A DNA stretch of 35,393 bases from a bacterium. GTDB taxonomy: Bacteria > Planctomycetota > JADGBV01. The stretch spans positions 1 to 35,393 of the forward strand of contig JAHFOS010000025.1 of NCBI GenBank assembly GCA_023261545.1, read 5' to 3'. Of the stretch, positions 5,867-35,393 are shown piece after piece. Both the position numbers and the translations under genes were made by a program. Positions within the stretch are counted from its first letter, which is position 1; every line of letters starts with the position of its first letter. Below the pieces are notes generated by a model, which did not search any database, was not told the origin of the DNA, and saw only the letters and a list, made by a program, of their open reading frames with translations.

Positions 5867-8800
5867 TTAGCGCAGCTCGAACTTAAGTTCTACGTTCTGT
5901 TCCCGGAAGGGGCCGGTGTTCTGCGTCGAGGTCCACTCGAAGGCCGGGACCCTGGAATTCCAGAAGGTACGGACCTTATAGAGGCCACTCTCGGGATCTG
6001 CTTGAACGCGACTCGTGGGCTTCGTGTTCGCAGTGTCCGCCTCAGCTATTTTGAGGAAGTTCTGTCCCGGTCGCTTCAGGAAAAAGTCCACGAAGAAAGT
6101 AGGGCCACCCCCCAAGTCGAAGTTGTGGGGGTCGAGAAAAATACCGATCTCGAAGATCCCGTGGAATACACTGGGGGGAGTCGGATGGGTGTCATAGGGC
6201 ACATTCGCCGGTTTTGCCCCGTCCGTCATGAAGTCATCGAGATAGACTTTTGGGTCAGAAACCGACGCATTTACGGCTGGCGAAAACAGTGTGCGCTTGA
6301 TCGCCCCACCTGTAGCTCCACCCTCGGCGGGAATCAAAATATCCACCGTGGCGGTGGGATCCACCTGGAGCCGTTTTTCCGTGAGGAAAGAGTCGGCTGG
6401 TGTGACCACCGGGTCAGGAGGCAGCAAGGTAATCTTGATAAAGTCCACCCGCAGTTCATCCAAGTTGCTCTCGCGCTTAAGTAGTGCCATGGGGTCACCC
6501 GACGGCTGAATCGTGAAATTCGCCGGCAGATCGATGGCGCTGGGATTGCCGTTGTAGAGCTTGATCTCGAAGGCCGAGGCAGCCACAACCCTGAGCTTGG
6601 TCAGCGTGTTTCCACTCAGGAGATTGCCGCTATAGACCCGGAAGCCATTTTCGTCACGCCCGTTGCCCGCAGCCGTGAAGGGGAAGGGGTTTCCCGACGC
6701 CGTGACCTCCATCAAGGAGAAACTATCCAGGCTGGCCGCAAGGTAGCGGAAACCCGTGCCGCTCACCGTGGCTCCGGGACTGAAGTTGAGTTCCACCACT
6801 TGGTTGCCGCTGGAAGCCGCGGAGGTTATTTTGTTGCCGGAAGCGCTGAAGGTGCCGATGACCGATGTGGAATTCCCGCCCGTGAGCAGCCAGTTGTTCC
6901 GCAGGAAGTCCTCGGCGTTGCCGGAACTCGCAGAGCTCACCCCCGCAACCGCAGGCACATGAGCGAGTTTCGTGGACGCGCCGTTCTTGAAGAGCTTGAA
7001 GGCCTCGAAGCGCGAGGGCTTGGTGAGATCCACGTCCAGGCGCAACGTGGTCCAAGTCTTGTCCGCCACCAGTTTTTCAGCCGAGGCTACTGTGATGGTG
7101 TTACCGCTCAGGGCGTTGCCCGTATCCACCATGTCGAGCTGCAAGTTGCCCGAAGTGTTGATGCGCCACAATAGTTGCGGATCGCGACTCGGAACAGGTT
7201 CGACGTGCCGGTCCTGTGCCAGCATCACGTTGCCGTTGGCGCCGAATTTGCGTACCTGGGTTTCCAGCGTGAAGCGCTGACCCCAAGTGATGCTGCTGGG
7301 ACCGCCAATGATAAGAGAGGTCTCCGGAAGCTGTGCATTGCCGGCTCCGTTGAAGTTGAGCGCCGTACCCGCATATTGATTCTGGACGAACTTTACGCCT
7401 TGGATGGGAACGGTGTTGCCCGAGAAATAAACTGTCGGAGGCGGGATGGAGCCCTCGTTCTTGAAGCTTGTCACCTCATTGGCATCGGTGTTCCACTTCT
7501 GGTCATTGAAATCCAGGAAGAAGTTATTGTCCTCGATGGTAAAAATCACGTTGCCGGAAGCCGCCGAGGAAAGGCTGTACGAGTCGGTGGCCACCGCCGA
7601 TACTTTGAAGGTTCCGCGGGCGTTGGAACTCCAGGTGCCCGTGAAAGGCGCGACATTGCTGGAGGAGGCAAAGGCGGCAATGAGATTTCCTGACGCGTTC
7701 TCACGGATGGTGTACGTGAGGTTCGAAATGGTGTCGGTGTCGATGACGTTCGACTGGAAGGTCACATTGCCGCCCAGGATGAACTTGCTGTTCTGGGCGG
7801 GCGCCGTGATCGTCACGACAGGCGTGTCGTTGACGCGAATGGAGATATTCGCCGAGGAAGTCGAGGCGTTGTCATTGTCCTGGGCCTCCACGCGCAGGAG
7901 ATGCGTACCCACATTTCCCGTGGATTGGTTGAAGGAGAAGGCATTGCCTGAACCAATCGTGTTCACCAGCGCGCCGTTGTCATAGAAGCGCATTTGAGCA
8001 ATGCTGCCATCGGAATCCGTCGCGGTGCCGCTGAAGGTGTAGGTCCCCGGATTGATCACAGCCCCGTTGGCAGGCGCTGTTACGCTCACGCCCGTCGGCG
8101 GCGCGTTGATGCGAATAGAAACATTGCCCGAAGACGTCGAGGCGCCGTCGTTGTCATCCGCTTCCACGCGCAGCAATTGGTTGCCGGAGCTCGCCACGGA
8201 ATGGGTGAACGAGAACAGGTTGCCGCCGCCGGTCCCGATGGTGTTGACCAAAGTGGTGCCACTAGCCCCGGCATAGAACCTTATTTTCGCTATCGTGCCG
8301 TCCGTATCAGTCCCGTTGCCGCTGAAGGTGAAACCCTGGTTGATCTGGAAGACGGAACCGTCAGAGGGCGCGGTGACGCTGACACTCGTGGGCGGCGCGT
8401 TGATGCGAATCGAAACATTGCCCGAAGAAGTCGAGGCGCCATTGTTGTCCTCCGCCTCCACGCGCAGCAATTGATTGCCGGCGCTTGCAATGGAATGGGT
8501 GAAGGAAAAGACGTTGCCCCCACCGGTCCCGATGGTGTTGACCAAGGTGGTCCCGCTCGCACCGCCGTAAAACCTTATCTTTGCTATCGTGCCATCCGTA
8601 TCCGTCCCGTTACCACTGAAGGTAAAACCCTGGTTGACCTGGAAGATGGAGCCGCCGGAAGGCGCGGTCACACTGGCACTCGTGGGTGGCGCGTTGATGC
8701 GAATCGGGACGTTGCCCGAAGATGTCGAGGCACCATTGTTGTCATCTGCCTCCACGCGCAGCATCTGGTTGCCAGAGCTTGCGATGGAGTGGGTAAAGGA

Positions 8801-9718
8801 AAAGACGTTGCCACCACCGGTGCCAATGGTGTTGACCAAAGTGTTTCCGCTCGCGCCGCCGTAGAACCGCATCTTTACTATCGTGCCATCCGTATCCGTC
8901 GCGTTGCCGCTGAAGGTAAAGCCCTGATTAATTTGGAACACGCTGTTGCCCGAGGGCGCCGTGACCTGGACGTTGGTGGGTTCCAGATTCATGCCAAGAT
9001 TGAAAATTTCGCCGATATCCGCGCTGCTGAGGGCTCTGTTGTAGATGCGCAATTCGTCGAAATCAGCCTTGGCATAGGTGCCCATCGGGCTGTCGGAGGC
9101 GGCGACCTTGAGATTGCGCCCCGTATTGGTGAGGGAACCGGTAATGCCGGTCGCCACCACCTCCTGATTGCCGTTCATGAAAAGCTTGAGGTTGGAGCCA
9201 TCCCGCAGGGCCACGATGTGCGCCCATTGTCCGATAGTGAGGGCATTGGTGGCGGTGGTGTACTGAGGGAAACCACCGATTTCGGTCGCAAACATGGGCT
9301 TATTATCGGATCCACCAATGGAAGCGAGATCGACGGCCCACTCGCCAAGGGTGGGCGTGGCGTCATCGTTCCATTTACAGATTCCCCGCCAATTTGTAAA
9401 AACGACCGAATTCGCATTTTTCCTCACCCAAAAGCCCACGCTGAAATTCCCCGAGCCGAAGTAATAAATGCTGCTGTTGCCCATGGTCACGAGGTCGTCC
9501 ACGCCATCGCAGGCCACGAACCCATTTCCCGTGAGTGTCACCCCACCTTGCAGGGTGCCGTTATTCCCTGACGAGCTGGAGTCCGCCGCCACGTTGCCAC
9601 TGGCTTCACTGAATCGCCAATGGCCGATGAGTCCCGTGGTTGTGTCTGCACTGGCATAATTCTGCGCCAGCAACCACAGGGCGCTTGCGAACAGCAATTT
9701 GGCTTTTTCGGCGTTCAT
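5867..9718 (-). CDS. Secreted LamG + tandem Ig-like (Big_9-type) repeat protein
   Basis: The ORF track starts at 9778, but the ATG at 9718 follows GGAG by 7 nt and begins a clean signal peptide (MNAEKAKLLFASALWLLAQNYASA). The 9778 start, also preceded by AGGA, would add 20 residues. After the signal comes a LamG/concanavalin-like domain (GLIGHWRFSEASGN, GVDDLVTMGNSS, FDELRIYNRALS). Four Ig-like repeats of about 98 aa follow (VTAPSG..F..NQGFTFSGN.TDTDG..RFY), then a second lectin-like region. The C-terminal ~200 residues have a different composition. SGN occurs about 25 times, nearly all before the last ~220 residues. The gene follows the 218-aa membrane protein gene closely, so they are likely cotranscribed. 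A role in surface binding of polysaccharide or matrix is inferred from the domain types only. Confidence 0.88.
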   Translation of the reverse strand: MNAEKAKLLFASALWLLAQNYASADTTTGLIGHWRFSEASGNVAADSSSSGNNGTLQGGVTLTGNGFVACDGVDDLVTMGNSSIYYFGSGNFSVGFWVRKNANSVVFTNWRGICKWNDDATPTLGEWAVDLASIGGSDNKPMFATEIGGFPQYTTATNALTIGQWAHIVALRDGSNLKLFMNGNQEVVATGITGSLTNTGRNLKVAASDSPMGTYAKADFDELRIYNRALSSADIGEIFNLGMNLEPTNVQVTAPSGNSVFQINQGFTFSGNATDTDGTIVKMRFYGGASGNTLVNTIGTGGGNVFSFTHSIASSGNQMLRVEADDNNGASTSSGNVPIRINAPPTSASVTAPSGGSIFQVNQGFTFSGNGTDTDGTIAKIRFYGGASGTTLVNTIGTGGGNVFSFTHSIASAGNQLLRVEAEDNNGASTSSGNVSIRINAPPTSVSVTAPSDGSVFQINQGFTFSGNGTDTDGTIAKIRFYAGASGTTLVNTIGTGGGNLFSFTHSVASSGNQLLRVEADDNDGASTSSGNVSIRINAPPTGVSVTAPANGAVINPGTYTFSGTATDSDGSIAQMRFYDNGALVNTIGSGNAFSFNQSTGNVGTHLLRVEAQDNDNASTSSANISIRVNDTPVVTITAPAQNSKFILGGNVTFQSNVIDTDTISNLTYTIRENASGNLIAAFASSSNVAPFTGTWSSNARGTFKVSAVATDSYSLSSAASGNVIFTIEDNNFFLDFNDQKWNTDANEVTSFKNEGSIPPPTVYFSGNTVPIQGVKFVQNQYAGTALNFNGAGNAQLPETSLIIGGPSSITWGQRFTLETQVRKFGANGNVMLAQDRHVEPVPSRDPQLLWRINTSGNLQLDMVDTGNALSGNTITVASAEKLVADKTWTTLRLDVDLTKPSRFEAFKLFKNGASTKLAHVPAVAGVSSASSGNAEDFLRNNWLLTGGNSTSVIGTFSASGNKITSAASSGNQVVELNFSPGATVSGTGFRYLAASLDSFSLMEVTASGNPFPFTAAGNGRDENGFRVYSGNLLSGNTLTKLRVVAASAFEIKLYNGNPSAIDLPANFTIQPSGDPMALLKRESNLDELRVDFIKITLLPPDPVVTPADSFLTEKRLQVDPTATVDILIPAEGGATGGAIKRTLFSPAVNASVSDPKVYLDDFMTDGAKPANVPYDTHPTPPSVFHGIFEIGIFLDPHNFDLGGGPTFFVDFFLKRPGQNFLKIAEADTANTKPTSRVQADPESGLYKVRTFWNSRVPAFEWTSTQNTGPFREQNVELKFELR
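8100..8985 (-). repeat. Three near-identical 294-bp tandem repeats (98 aa each)
   Basis: The phrase gcgttgatgcgaat recurs at about 8103, 8397 and 8691, and the intervening DNA matches closely. Each unit encodes one Ig-like domain ending in STSSGNVxIRIN. The next, more diverged unit (RFYDNGALVNTIGSGN) lies just left of the array. The high nucleotide identity points to recent duplication or gene conversion. Confidence 0.8.
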
Positions 9719-28248: not shown

Positions 28249-28531
28249 CAAGGAAAGTAAGCGTTCAGCCCATCATTTGCGCCTTCGATGGCCTAAAATT
28301 TCGCGATACGAGAGCCTGTCTTTTGAAGCATCAATCATTTGGTGTAGCCCAACCTCGGATAGCAAAGCCAAAAGACCCACCAGCGCTGCCCGCCGTTGGC
28401 GGACCCTGAGGCGGCCGTTCCTACCCTTGCAAGCACAGCCCCCATCGGCCCTCCGGCCTCTCCCCTGTGAACTCAAGCCACCGGCGGGAGCTTGAGTTTT
28501 TTCTTTAAACGCGCCCAGGAAGTCCCCGAAA
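28249..28531. other. Intergenic region with possible gene remnant
   Basis: No convincing gene. A minus-strand reading at 28273-28476 (RRAALVGLLALLSEVGLHQM) could be a decayed fragment. The stretch ends in the terminator hairpin at 28471. Confidence 0.3.
28471..28506 (+). terminator. Rho-independent terminator
   Basis: ACTCAAGC ... GCTTGAGT forms an 8-bp stem with an 11-nt loop followed by TTTTTTCTTT on the plus strand. No plus-strand gene was identified upstream, so it may serve a lost gene or an unrecognised RNA. Confidence 0.7.
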
Positions 28532-28654
28532 AATCCTTAAACGCGTTTTTAGGGGGGTCAAAACATACGAATAAGGCCAAAAAACAGCCCGTTTTTTGGC
28601 TTATTTCATTGAGAATCAATCACTTATCGTGGTTCACTTATCGTGGTCTGACCC
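28532..28654 (+). repeat. Dispersed ~120-bp hairpin repeat, copy A
   Basis: It opens with atccttaaacgcg, tttttaggggggtcaaaa and catacgaataagg. A perfect 10-bp hairpin (gccaaaaaac/gttttttggc) follows, and the copy ends with cacttatcgtggtctgaccc; cacttatcgtggt is tandemly duplicated here. Copies B and C share the same ends. Just downstream lies a run of about six GGACCC words (28,681-28,740). Confidence 0.8.
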
Positions 28655-29660: not shown

Positions 29661-29866
29661 TCTATTTTTCTTTTTTTCGATTCGACCCCATGAGCGTACA
29701 ATAAGCGCACATGCGGTTTTGTTTCGTGGGCGAGGCATCTTGTCGCCGGTGCTTTTTTTCAACACGGAACGCAGAGGTTTCGGAGCCCCCGCCGGACGTG
29801 CGGCGTGGAATGGGAGTTTTTTCGATCCCGATCAGGCGAGACGTAAAACCGAGTTATCCGAGGCCT
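29661..29866. other. Non-coding spacer
   Basis: No supported gene, only short shadow ORFs and T-rich tracts (ctatttttctttttttcg, gctttttttc). The first T-tract lacks a hairpin, so no terminator was called for the MscS gene. Confidence 0.3.
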
Positions 29867-29993
29867 GAAAATTCCTTAAACGCATTTTTAGGGGGGTCAA
29901 AACATACGAATAAGGCTAAAAAACAGCCCAATTTAGGGCCTATCTTCCTGCTTATCAATCGGTTGGCTTGGCGGTTGGCTTGGTCCGACCCCC
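29867..29993 (+). repeat. Dispersed ~120-bp hairpin repeat, copy B
   Basis: It shares attccttaaacgcatttttaggggggtcaaaacatacgaataagg and the end ttggtccgaccccc with copies A and C. The central hairpin is weaker (ggctaaaaaacagcccaatttagggcc). ggttggcttgg is duplicated near the end. It lies next to the broken end of the PlsC remnant. Confidence 0.8.
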
Positions 29994-31617: not shown

Positions 31618-31620
31618 AAA

Positions 31621-31730
31621 GATCCTTGAAACCACTTTTAGGGGGGCAAAAACATACGAATAAGGCCCAAAAACGGCCCGTTTTAGGGCTTATCTCCAGA
31701 TGGATCAATTACTTAGCGTGGTCCGACCCC
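31621..31730 (+). repeat. Dispersed ~120-bp hairpin repeat, copy C
   Basis: It shares atccttgaaaccacttttaggggggcaaaaacatacgaataagg and the end ttagcgtggtccgacccc. The central hairpin GCCCAAAAAC/GTTTTAGGGC differs from copy A by partly compensating changes, suggesting that structure is conserved. Confidence 0.8.
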
Positions 31731-31740
31731 GAATTCTCAA

Positions 31741-31832
31741 GAAAGTAGGAAGGCAGAGCTCGTCGGCTTCGTCGCGGCGGCCTTGGGCATTCTCCAGCCA
31801 AGGCTGACCTTGAAAGTAGGAAGGCAGAGCTA
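31741..31832 (+). repeat. 20-bp direct repeat upstream of folB
   Basis: GAAAGTAGGAAGGCAGAGCT occurs at about 31741 and again at about 31813. The second copy ends about 12 bp before the folB start. It could be a regulatory site or repeat debris. The surrounding 31,731-31,843 stretch has no other recognisable gene. Confidence 0.65.
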
Positions 31833-32209: not shown

Positions 32210-32313
32210 GGGCCGGCTGGAAGCGCAGCGGGCGTGAGCGCGCGCGAACATCACGATTTTAGCCAATAAAATCGGGCTCAAACGGCCCTCCAAGACGGAC
32301 TCAGCGCAGGCTC

Positions 32314-32438
32314 GTCAGGCCCCCCGCCCTGCTGGGGCAGGGATCCCAGCGCCCCAGCAGGGCGGGGGGCCGAGTAGCCTTGTTCCGGGTCATCTTGGGC
32401 TAAAATCACGATGGTTCCGTGAATCTAATTTCCTATCG
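32314..32438 (+). repeat. Left terminal inverted repeat with 21-bp hairpin
   Basis: It contains a perfect hairpin, GGCCCCCCGCCCTGCTGGGGC (32318-32338) with its complement at 32351-32371 and a 12-nt loop. It continues gccttgttccgggtcatctt...gttccgtgaatctaatttcc. The whole stretch is the inverted counterpart of 34833-34955. The stop and last codons of the beta-helix gene lie inside it. Confidence 0.88.
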
Positions 32439-34852
32439 GCCTGATCGTGTTGAATGAAAAACACGGAGGGTTTGTCGGTAACAATGAGGTCATTCAGACA
32501 GGAGCCGCCCTTGACGGGTTTCAGGATGAACCGGTGTTCTTCGGCGCGCAAATTCCCCAGCGCTCCCATCCAGACAACCCGAAAGGCGTTGTTATTTCGA
32601 TGCCACTGGTAAGAGGGTTCGACGGTGATTTTAAAAGGTGAGGCGCCGTCCAGTGCGCATTCAAAAATCCTGTTGACGGCGTTCGGTTCATCCCGCCGGA
32701 GGCGGGCCAGCAGGTAATATTTTCCTTCCCCGGGCGGAGTGAACTTAAAATCCAAAACCGGTTGTTGCGCCACGCCGTCGAGAAGCGCGTATTTTCCACC
32801 GGTAATATTTTCTGAATCATCCTTTTTGATAAAAGCGTTGGTGCCGGCGGTGGGATCAAGATAAACGGAATTCGGGGCCTCCGGCCTGTGGAGCCTTTCG
32901 GTGAATTGTCCTTTTGCGTAGATTGTCACCGGACGCGACAAACCTTCCGGCGTCCGCACGAGAAAAGCCCCGCGAAACCAGGGGCGTCCGGTTAATTTTT
33001 GCGGAAGGGAGACGGTGAGTTTCAGCGTTTTTCCGGGCTTGATTTCTCCAGAGGCGGGTTCGACTTTGAACCAGGTGAAGGCCTGGTTCTGACGGATTTG
33101 AAACTGGATAGCATGGGCGGCATTTTCCGGACAAACCAGCAACATTTCCAGGGTCGATTTTTCCAGCGGCGAATTAAATTGGAGTTGTCTGGGCTCGGTG
33201 AAAAGGGCCAGGGGGCGGTTGGGCAGGTCGTCGACAGCGCCGATGAAGGCTCCAAGGTCGGACCCCTCCCGGGTGAGATTGCTGAGCCCGACGCTTTTGC
33301 CTTTGGCGGGACTGCCAGATCTGAGTTGAAAATTTCCTTCAAGCGGGTTTATCAATTCCGGATCTGCGCAGATCCCGGTTTTTTCCAGACCCAGATCTTT
33401 GAGGTCGGAAACGGCTTTTTGCGATGACTCCGCGCTTTTTCCGTCCCAAAAAAGATTGTTGTTAAAATTGTCGAACTTCGTCGATCGGTCCGTTTTCATC
33501 CGTTCCTCAGCGCAAACGAAAATATTGTTCCGCGCGAAGCCGAGCCATGTTCCGGTGAGCTTATCGATATTTCCGTAAGCGGTGTTGTTGGTGCAAAAAA
33601 CCGTGTTGTTCAGGACAAAACGTTTTCCCGTCTGAAGTGCGCTATGGCCGTTTTTAAAGGACTGGAGAGAAAGGCCGCTTTCGTCCCCGGGATTCACCAG
33701 CAGATTGTTGAAAATATATTGAGGGCCGAGCAAGCAGGCTCCCGTGCTGACTCCGCAAAGTGTTCCCTCCACTTTATTTTGATAAAAGCGGACGTTCATT
33801 CCCCCGCCTTCCAATTCGATTCCGTCGTCATTGCCGAAGGCGTGGAAGTTGCCGTAAATGTCGGCGTCCCGAAAAAAACCGCCGCTCGGCGAACTGTTTT
33901 CCGAACTTTCCACCACGTCGTTCCAGCGGTGTTCGTCGCTGCCAATAAAGTCGTTCCAGCGCAGCACTGTTCCGCCCCGGGATTCATAGACGTAAACGGC
34001 GCTGGGTCCGGCGGGGTGGGAAAACATCCAGGAATTGGCACGGCTTTTCGGATCGTGAATATAACAGCGCTCCACCACGGTCCGGGCACTGTGGTAAATA
34101 CGGACTCCCGCATCGTAATTGATGCATTTTCCCTTTTCGTCGAAATATTGCCCGATGGAATGGGCGTCGTCGAAATTCTGGGTTCCGACGAGTCCCCACC
34201 CCGAAAGGTCGCAATTGAGGATGCGGATGTCATCGGAATCCGTCACATCAACGGCGCAGCGATGTCCGCTTACAATCTTCACATTTTCCATGATCACATA
34301 GCGGGCGTTTTTAAAAGCGATGGTCGCCTGACTTTCGGGATCGTTCGGATCATCGGGAATGATTTCAATGGGACGGGAAGCGACCAGTTTAATCCACCCA
34401 TTGGGAGAGCCTTCTTCGGAAATAACGATGCCTTTTCTTTTCCCGGCCCTTTCGCTTAAATCAATGACCCGGGCGACCGGCACGGAGCTTTTCCAGGTCT
34501 TGAAGCCGCCCTGAAAAAGAATTTTATCCCCGCCTTCCGGACGCACCTGAAGCTCGTAGCTGATGTCTTCCCGTAAACCAAAAAGGCTGCCTTTCCAGAC
34601 ACCTGCCGGCAAATTGATCACCGGCGACATGGCCGACTGCCAGGCCGTTTCTCCTTTGCGACGGAATTCAACAGCGAACTTTTCCCCCTCACCCTTCGTA
34701 GGATAAAAATAGTAACTGGCGTTTTCAAAACTGGGTTTGATTTCCAGTTCGCCGGGTTTTAAGTCAAAGTTGATTTTGATTTCCTCTCCGGACGCGAAGA
34801 GAATCATCAGAGATAAAAAAAGCGCCGCGAGTCGATAGGAAATTGGATTCAC
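32390..34852 (-). CDS. Secreted right-handed beta-helix protein, polysaccharide-lyase-like
   Basis: 820 aa from a GTG at 34852, with signal peptide YRLAALFLSLMILFASGEE. An N-terminal Ig-like region precedes a right-handed parallel beta-helix (about residues 160-510: YVIMENVKIVSGHRCAVDVT, ILNCDLSGWGLVG, FYQNKVEGTLCGVSTGACLL). The C-terminal part has an Ig-like segment (EPRQLQFNSPLEKSTLEMLL) and a carbohydrate-binding-like domain (LDGVAQQPVLDFKFTPPGEG). It resembles beta-helix polysaccharide lyases and DUF1565-type proteins, but no catalytic residues were assigned. GC content is visibly lower than its neighbours'. Both ends lie inside ~120-bp inverted repeats, so it is probably the cargo of a mobile cassette. 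The start lacks a Shine-Dalgarno. Confidence 0.85.
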   Translation of the reverse strand: MNPISYRLAALFLSLMILFASGEEIKINFDLKPGELEIKPSFENASYYFYPTKGEGEKFAVEFRRKGETAWQSAMSPVINLPAGVWKGSLFGLREDISYELQVRPEGGDKILFQGGFKTWKSSVPVARVIDLSERAGKRKGIVISEEGSPNGWIKLVASRPIEIIPDDPNDPESQATIAFKNARYVIMENVKIVSGHRCAVDVTDSDDIRILNCDLSGWGLVGTQNFDDAHSIGQYFDEKGKCINYDAGVRIYHSARTVVERCYIHDPKSRANSWMFSHPAGPSAVYVYESRGGTVLRWNDFIGSDEHRWNDVVESSENSSPSGGFFRDADIYGNFHAFGNDDGIELEGGGMNVRFYQNKVEGTLCGVSTGACLLGPQYIFNNLLVNPGDESGLSLQSFKNGHSALQTGKRFVLNNTVFCTNNTAYGNIDKLTGTWLGFARNNIFVCAEERMKTDRSTKFDNFNNNLFWDGKSAESSQKAVSDLKDLGLEKTGICADPELINPLEGNFQLRSGSPAKGKSVGLSNLTREGSDLGAFIGAVDDLPNRPLALFTEPRQLQFNSPLEKSTLEMLLVCPENAAHAIQFQIRQNQAFTWFKVEPASGEIKPGKTLKLTVSLPQKLTGRPWFRGAFLVRTPEGLSRPVTIYAKGQFTERLHRPEAPNSVYLDPTAGTNAFIKKDDSENITGGKYALLDGVAQQPVLDFKFTPPGEGKYYLLARLRRDEPNAVNRIFECALDGASPFKITVEPSYQWHRNNNAFRVVWMGALGNLRAEEHRFILKPVKGGSCLNDLIVTDKPSVFFIQHDQADRKLDSRNHRDFSPR

Positions 34853-34955
34853 GGAACAACCGTGATTTTAACCCAGGATGACCCAAAACAAGGCTGCTAT
34901 GTCCCCCGCCCTACTGGGGCGTTGGGACCCTAGCGCCCCAGTAGGGCGGGGGACG
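34833..34955 (-). repeat. Right terminal inverted repeat with ~21-bp hairpin
   Basis: Its reverse complement matches the left repeat at roughly 85-87% (for example gccttgttttgggtcatcct...gttccgtgaatccaatttcc). It holds a perfect hairpin, GTCCCCCGCCCTACTGGGGC with its complement (34901-34920 and 34935-34954). The first codons of the beta-helix gene lie within it. Confidence 0.88.
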
Positions 34956-35127: not shown

Positions 35128-35319
35128 TCAGCCGCCGGTCTCCTTTGCCGGCGGCCCCCGGATGTTGAGGCTGGGGGGATCCTTGCCAAGCAGATCTAGG
35201 TGTTTGAGGATGCGATAGATGACGGCGGTGTCATTGATGAAGGCGACGATGCGCATTGTGCCCGGGCAGGCGGGGCAGCGCAGCGGGTCAACCTCGTAGG
35301 AGTTTGTTCCATACTGCAC
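35128..35319 (-). pseudogene. C-terminal remnant of a transposase (IS91/Y2-like tail)
   Basis: The reading YEVDPLRCPACPGTMRIVAF followed by INDTAVIYRILKHLDLLG matches the conserved C-terminal zinc-ribbon-like tail of IS91/IS801-type transposases (YEVDPL.CP.CG..M.I.A.I.....I..IL.HL). An in-frame TAA lies about 20 bp upstream of the GTG start, and the rest of the transposase is absent or in another frame at the window edge. It is a degraded insertion-sequence end. Confidence 0.65.
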
Positions 35320-35393
35320 CCCATGCCTCTTTTGCGGCGGTTAGCTTTCATTCTGGCACCTTGCCTCTCGTCTTCTTTCATTTTCCGCAACAC

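Follow-up and report, generated by a model that had tools for sequence, protein, structure and literature searches.

Inverted repeats around a planctomycete beta-helix gene as probable right ends of IS91/ISPps1-like rolling-circle elements

In the rolling-circle model, transfer begins at the ori and then passes through that side of the element where the transposase lies (PMC5714925). For IS801 in Pseudomonas syringae, one-ended transposition gave right-end minis of 229, 360 and 679 nt (PMC3189936), and in the case of ISCR1, outward promoters have been measured at oriIS (PMC6218425). In ISPps1-type IS91 elements, such as those of P. putida pW2 (NC_013176) and pAKD16 (JN106167), the transposase C-terminus is followed by 200-500 bp and then by the right end TTCCTATC(S)S (or CCTATCCGT), beyond which the copies diverge. 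The same arrangement was found at the locus described here, and a -10-like hexamer ~35 nt inside the end (TATACT/TAAAAT) is common to ISPps1-type elements and to our repeats. Unlike ISPps1-type elements, however, the locus holds only right-end fragments without a complete transposase, and a long covarying hairpin lies between transposase and terminus. The fragments resemble the IS801 minis in having a common right terminus and differing left ends, but are older and more diverged (75-90% identical) and number ~27 copies. As with oriIS of ISCR1, the ori end adjoins downstream genes and contains an outward -10-like sequence, whereas the genes here are chromosomal and not resistance genes, and the promoter is a putative one, recognised by motif and orientation only. 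In addition, ISCR-like mobilisation concerns a gene beyond the ter side, whereas here both copies have the gene on their ori side.

The locus was analysed within the window, i.e. the whole stretch of 35,393 nt, which comes from a fragmented MAG of 4.56 Mb (288 contigs, 4% estimated contamination). Two inverted arms (32334-32438 and 34833-34937) are 84% complementary over 105 nt, and BLAST aligned them at 85% identity over 121 nt (E 7e-31). The left hairpin is perfect and the right one forms a 26-bp stem (92%). Both the GTG start (34850-34852) and the TGA stop (32390-32392) of a beta-helix gene lie inside the repeats. A sequence-only reading had already described the inverted repeats, the hairpins and this overlap with the start and stop codons, all of which were borne out by the arms, stems and ORF coordinates. 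The same reading saw no transposase, wrongly: the right repeat is longer than first noted, with similarity to copies in the same genome from 34832 to about 35300, and continues into a C-terminal transposase remnant (Table 1), soon after which the contig ends at 35393. The lower GC content reported for the gene is correct but slight (52.5% versus 57.5% for the window, with 19% of equal-sized windows here as low). The description of the repeats as terminal turned out to be inside-out, as both conserved element ends (CCGATAGG) are directed inward at the beta-helix gene, and the hairpins and the transposase remnant lie on the outer side. The left copy ends in AATTTCCTATCGGC at 32427-32440, and the ori terminus of the right copy, at about 34832, points into the gene at its 5' end.

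Table 1. Features at the beta-helix locus (positions in the window).
Feature	Position	Strand	Remarks
Left copy, solo ori (right) end, IS91/ISPps1-like by sequence	32318..32440	+	ori terminus at 32440, into 3' end of beta-helix gene, convergent
Hairpin of left copy	32318..32371	.	21-bp perfect stem; covariation across copies
Secreted beta-helix gene, 820 aa	32390..34852	-	first ~7 residues (VNPISYR) from right copy; last 16 and stop from left copy
TAAAAT -10-like hexamer, left copy	32401..32406	+	outward, antisense to beta-helix gene; conserved in old copies; putative function
Right copy, ori (right) end and transposase 3' codons	34832..35301	-	~465-bp form, common to C145, C47, C189, C77 and C153
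TAAAAT -10-like hexamer, right copy	34865..34870	-	outward into beta-helix gene; conserved in old copies; putative function
Hairpin of right copy	34901..34954	.	stem; covariation across copies
C-terminal remnant of IS91-family transposase (EVDPLRCPACPGTMRIVAFI...ILKHLDLLGKDPP)	35131..35319	-	sequence matches to IS91-family transposases
Stretch common with end of contig C145, 99%	35271..35393	.	both contigs terminate here

Of a transposase-like gene reading toward the terminus, the 465-bp form of the repeat contains the last ~55 codons. This piece is short; it matches the ISPps1 transposase (47% over 59 aa) and a Y2_Tnp/Zn_Tnp_IS91 protein (50% identical over 50 aa), and its DNA matches annotated IS91-family transposase genes (82% identity over 65 bp). 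The full ISPps1 and IS91-family transposases matched in this way bear Y2_Tnp and Zn_Tnp_IS91. The decisive evidence comes from the termini: on Proteobacterial plasmids, complete IS91-family elements stop exactly at the corresponding sequence (GGGATAGGAAAT / TTCCTATCGG), as do relatives in the same phylum. One IS91-family element is represented by four plasmid copies, which agree at 99.7-99.9% beginning exactly with GGGATAGGAAATCC and have differing flanks, divergence setting in immediately outside GGGATAGGAAATCCAACCGC; ISPps1 copies terminate at CCTATCCGT, as does a copy from Rhodoferax, and in the phylum relative G080 the copies lose homology at CTTCCTATCGG. Because their termini match the ends of complete IS91-family elements, the window repeats are, as judged by sequence, the ori (right) ends of IS91/ISPps1-like rolling-circle elements. 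The right end has the identical position and a sequence similar to the ori end of the family, and, as is typical of IS801-type minis, a common right terminus is combined with a variable left end. Of a Y2 HUH transposase only the last ~55 codons are present in the element, and the repeats were therefore filed as family-derived fragments rather than functional members. No complete partner element was found in the genome. Its sole Y2_Tnp match (L112, contig C213), with a tyrosine-recombinase-like gene adjacent, is a different IS91-type transposase gene and was rejected as autonomous partner because it has another terminus. A match on C250 was likewise set aside as a distant IS91-type piece on a contig that may be contamination, and an Rfam search returned sub-threshold chance matches only.

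With the left arm as query, 37 matches were detected in the same genome, and the terminal 23-mer, when up to 3 mismatches were allowed, was found there at 26 sites, compared to 0 for a reversed control pattern. Together with a copy on C77, this gives the 27 copies counted here. The repeat terminus was found in 0 of 58 other genomes of the phylum, and an exact pattern search detected it neither in IMG/VR nor in GTDB species contigs, where the homologues of the beta-helix gene lie. Alignment on the terminus revealed one sharp end common to every copy (CCGATAGGAAATTGGATTCACGG) and a variable opposite side, the length kept ranging from ~25 to ~465 bp with different truncation points. Similarity is lost ~25 bp from the terminus in C15 and C138 and at 44-75 bp in others, the left copy and C166 keep it past the hairpin, and the right copy and its five relatives in Table 1 keep ~465 bp. 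At its far end, this 465-bp form does not have an inverted version of the ori end. Most copies stand alone or as direct pairs beside unrelated genes; where another contig bears two copies, as C145 and C189 do, both have the same orientation. The left copy, the right copy and C220 form one subfamily (support 0.95). IS91 and IS801 have a GAAC/CAAG tetranucleotide, and other family members may differ. Next to the terminus of the present copies no tetranucleotide of this type was found; only a C is conserved (23/26 copies), and CTTG occurs only in C231. The sequence-only reading had suggested searching for further copies with other cargo or with a transposase. Copies elsewhere adjoin unrelated genes, and transposase codons, only the last ~55, are attached in at least 6 copies. 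The repeat is not unique to this locus.

Several observations were made alongside. The copy at C102:13473-13636 (L024/L104) has two inverted ori-like termini ~165 bp apart, between two genes reading away, and is a palindromic derivative, which is unusual for IS91. At 32249-32264 of the window, outside the left hairpin, part of the inner ori-end sequence (CATCACGATTTTAGCC) recurs in inverted form, perhaps as a relic of the other terminus of a palindromic copy. Another dispersed repeat (core AAAAATCCTTAAAACCACTTTTAGGGGGGTCAAAACATACGAATAAGGCC) occurs in the window at 28465-28636, 29864-29971 and 31618-31731 as well as in C77, C145, C189, C231, C247 and C288, and on C77 it lies immediately beside the 465-bp IS91 remnant. 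The window also contains a perfect 20-bp direct repeat (GAAAGTAGGAAGGCAGAGCT) at 31741-31760 and 31812-31831, just upstream of folB, and internal repeats of several hundred bp (~78% identical) in a long reading frame at 7828-8969.

The hairpin stem is located ~70 bp inside the ori end, between this end and the transposase stop. Across seven copies, 98.7% of the stem cells are paired, and 8 of 23 stem pairs have changed on both sides, whereas none did in any of the slid controls. Compensatory change has preserved the hairpin. The two stem arms have become shorter together in C153 and C166, which is expected from arm-to-arm copying of a palindrome as well as from selection.

In the case of the beta-helix gene itself, the domain match is weak (PF13229, E 7e-5, below the Pfam cut-off). 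Opitutaceae, Cyclobacterium and planctomycetes have homologues with 45-49% identity over ~800 aa. Matches at E<=1e-20 were found in 15 of 392 phylum genomes, counting its own, and the best homologues are spread over several phyla; given this patchy distribution, the gene probably moves between lineages. A second, 34% identical member of the family is present in the same genome (G000:C89:2946-4751). Homologous proteins start with a signal peptide and stop a few residues past an FFxQ motif, and in the window gene these places are taken by VNPISYR and ADRKLDSRNHRDFSPR, both encoded by the repeats. Because the homologues have native ends where element sequence stands here, element sequence has taken the place of the outermost codons at both ends of the gene, presumably by insertion. 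The terminal 26 bp of the repeat encode GTG-AAT-CCA-ATT-TCC-TAT-CGG (MNPISYR), that is, a start and a charged n-region with the -10 just upstream. In the beta-helix gene and in C233, MNPISYR stands in frame before a hydrophobic stretch and would thereby provide a new signal-peptide start.

The genes next to the ori ends show a preferred orientation. Based on simple codon-score gene calls, partly read by hand, the nearest gene on the ori side reads away in 21 of 27 copies (one-sided binomial 0.003), and in about 15 copies, read from the sequences by hand, a gene start lies within ~60 bp of the ori end. Among the neighbouring genes are those for enolase, a GDSL lipase, an N6 methylase, Uma2 and a CBM_4_9 protein. 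Six copies, the left copy among them, face gene ends, and the copy on C153 starts directly after a TAG. The CTAAAATC block, ~35 nt inside the end and at the position of GTGCTATACT in the plasmid elements, is more conserved than its surroundings in old copies (hexamer mean identity 0.92 vs 0.72 around). The -35 match of the outward promoter candidate is weak, and a strict sigma-70 scan did not list the outward TAAAAT promoter of the right copy. The 21 neighbours reading away suit an outward promoter as in ISCR1, and the ori end likely carries one; alternatively, the conservation of CTAAAATC may reflect binding by the transposase. The sequence-only reading had offered paired transcription borders as its second choice, which comes near the mark for the right copy, with its outward -10-like motif and putative promoter role. 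Further neighbours were noted: LexA-like genes or fragments were seen by eye near L034 (C47), L037 (C153), L031 (C189) and L085 (C154), the LexA-like frame in C154 running beside the transposase remnant, and toxin-antitoxin-like pairs adjoin the copies on C36, C47 and C247.

Altogether, we regard it as highly probable that two independent IS91/ISPps1-like ori (right) ends flank an ordinary beta-helix gene, with both termini facing it. The fragments would derive from right-end (one-ended) transposition or from later truncation, with transposition driven in trans by a transposase outside the assembly, and the HUH transposase may read the hairpin in single-stranded form. Copies would then have inserted at the beta-helix gene, so that the outward promoter of the right copy may now drive the gene and this copy would supply its GTG start, while the stop codon and a hairpin facing antisense would come from the left copy. 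With ~30 copies lying at gene ends and ~4000 genes, the chance of one such pair was estimated at about 0.05, i.e. two copies at one gene are roughly a 5% coincidence and not extraordinary. A shared burst of the left and right copies is plausible, because both form one subfamily with C220.

The sequence-only reading had instead proposed a non-autonomous cassette, whose terminal inverted repeats move the beta-helix gene as a unit. Its recognition of the repeats as mobile DNA with further copies stands, and the tight enclosure of a single gene by an inverted pair, the relatedness of the two copies and the patchy occurrence of the gene all fit such a cassette. In a TIR or MITE cassette, however, the element termini would be outermost, whereas the sharp termini here point inward with hairpins and transposase remnant outside. 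Furthermore, most copies elsewhere stand alone or as direct pairs beside other genes, no inverted pair with single-gene cargo being found among them (C145 and C189 are direct), and the gene was not found a second time together with these repeats, the terminus also being absent from GTDB species contigs. Because both ori termini face the gene, rolling-circle transfer from either of them would, in the published model (PMC5714925), run away from it. Considering also that chance yields such a pair at the frequency estimated above, the cassette is very improbable.

Just as improbable is a host regulatory element, in which the repeat would be the shared promoter or leader of a regulon and not mobile DNA. 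The conserved CTAAAATC block and the 21 of 27 copies that face genes as promoters would, one of them before enolase, are in line with it, but the terminus is the end of IS91-family elements, transposase codons are attached to at least 6 copies, several copies lie at gene 3' ends, and the repeat is absent from the 58 phylum relatives. REP/REPIN-type elements or bidirectional terminators could also come to mind, given a stem rich in GC where genes converge (left copy, C153, C189). This is the least probable of the three, as there is no T-tract, many copies are without a hairpin, the unit reaches 465 bp, the transposase piece is of the IS91 type (Y2) and not RAYT (Y1), and the match to the IS91 terminus disfavours both.

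The two independent ori ends at the beta-helix gene show that remnants of rolling-circle elements can mimic a gene cassette. Right-end fragments of IS91 elements are of a known kind, and the donation of promoter and start codon is what we infer in addition. That solo IS91 ori ends have spread in this lineage as mobile donors of promoters and start codons is a tentative proposal, which we consider rather unlikely. The hairpin close to the ori end, with its strong covariation, is a lead to what this branch of IS91 transposases recognises, and the ~27 solo ori ends, mostly located before genes, are a set for testing the domestication of transposon ends as promoters.
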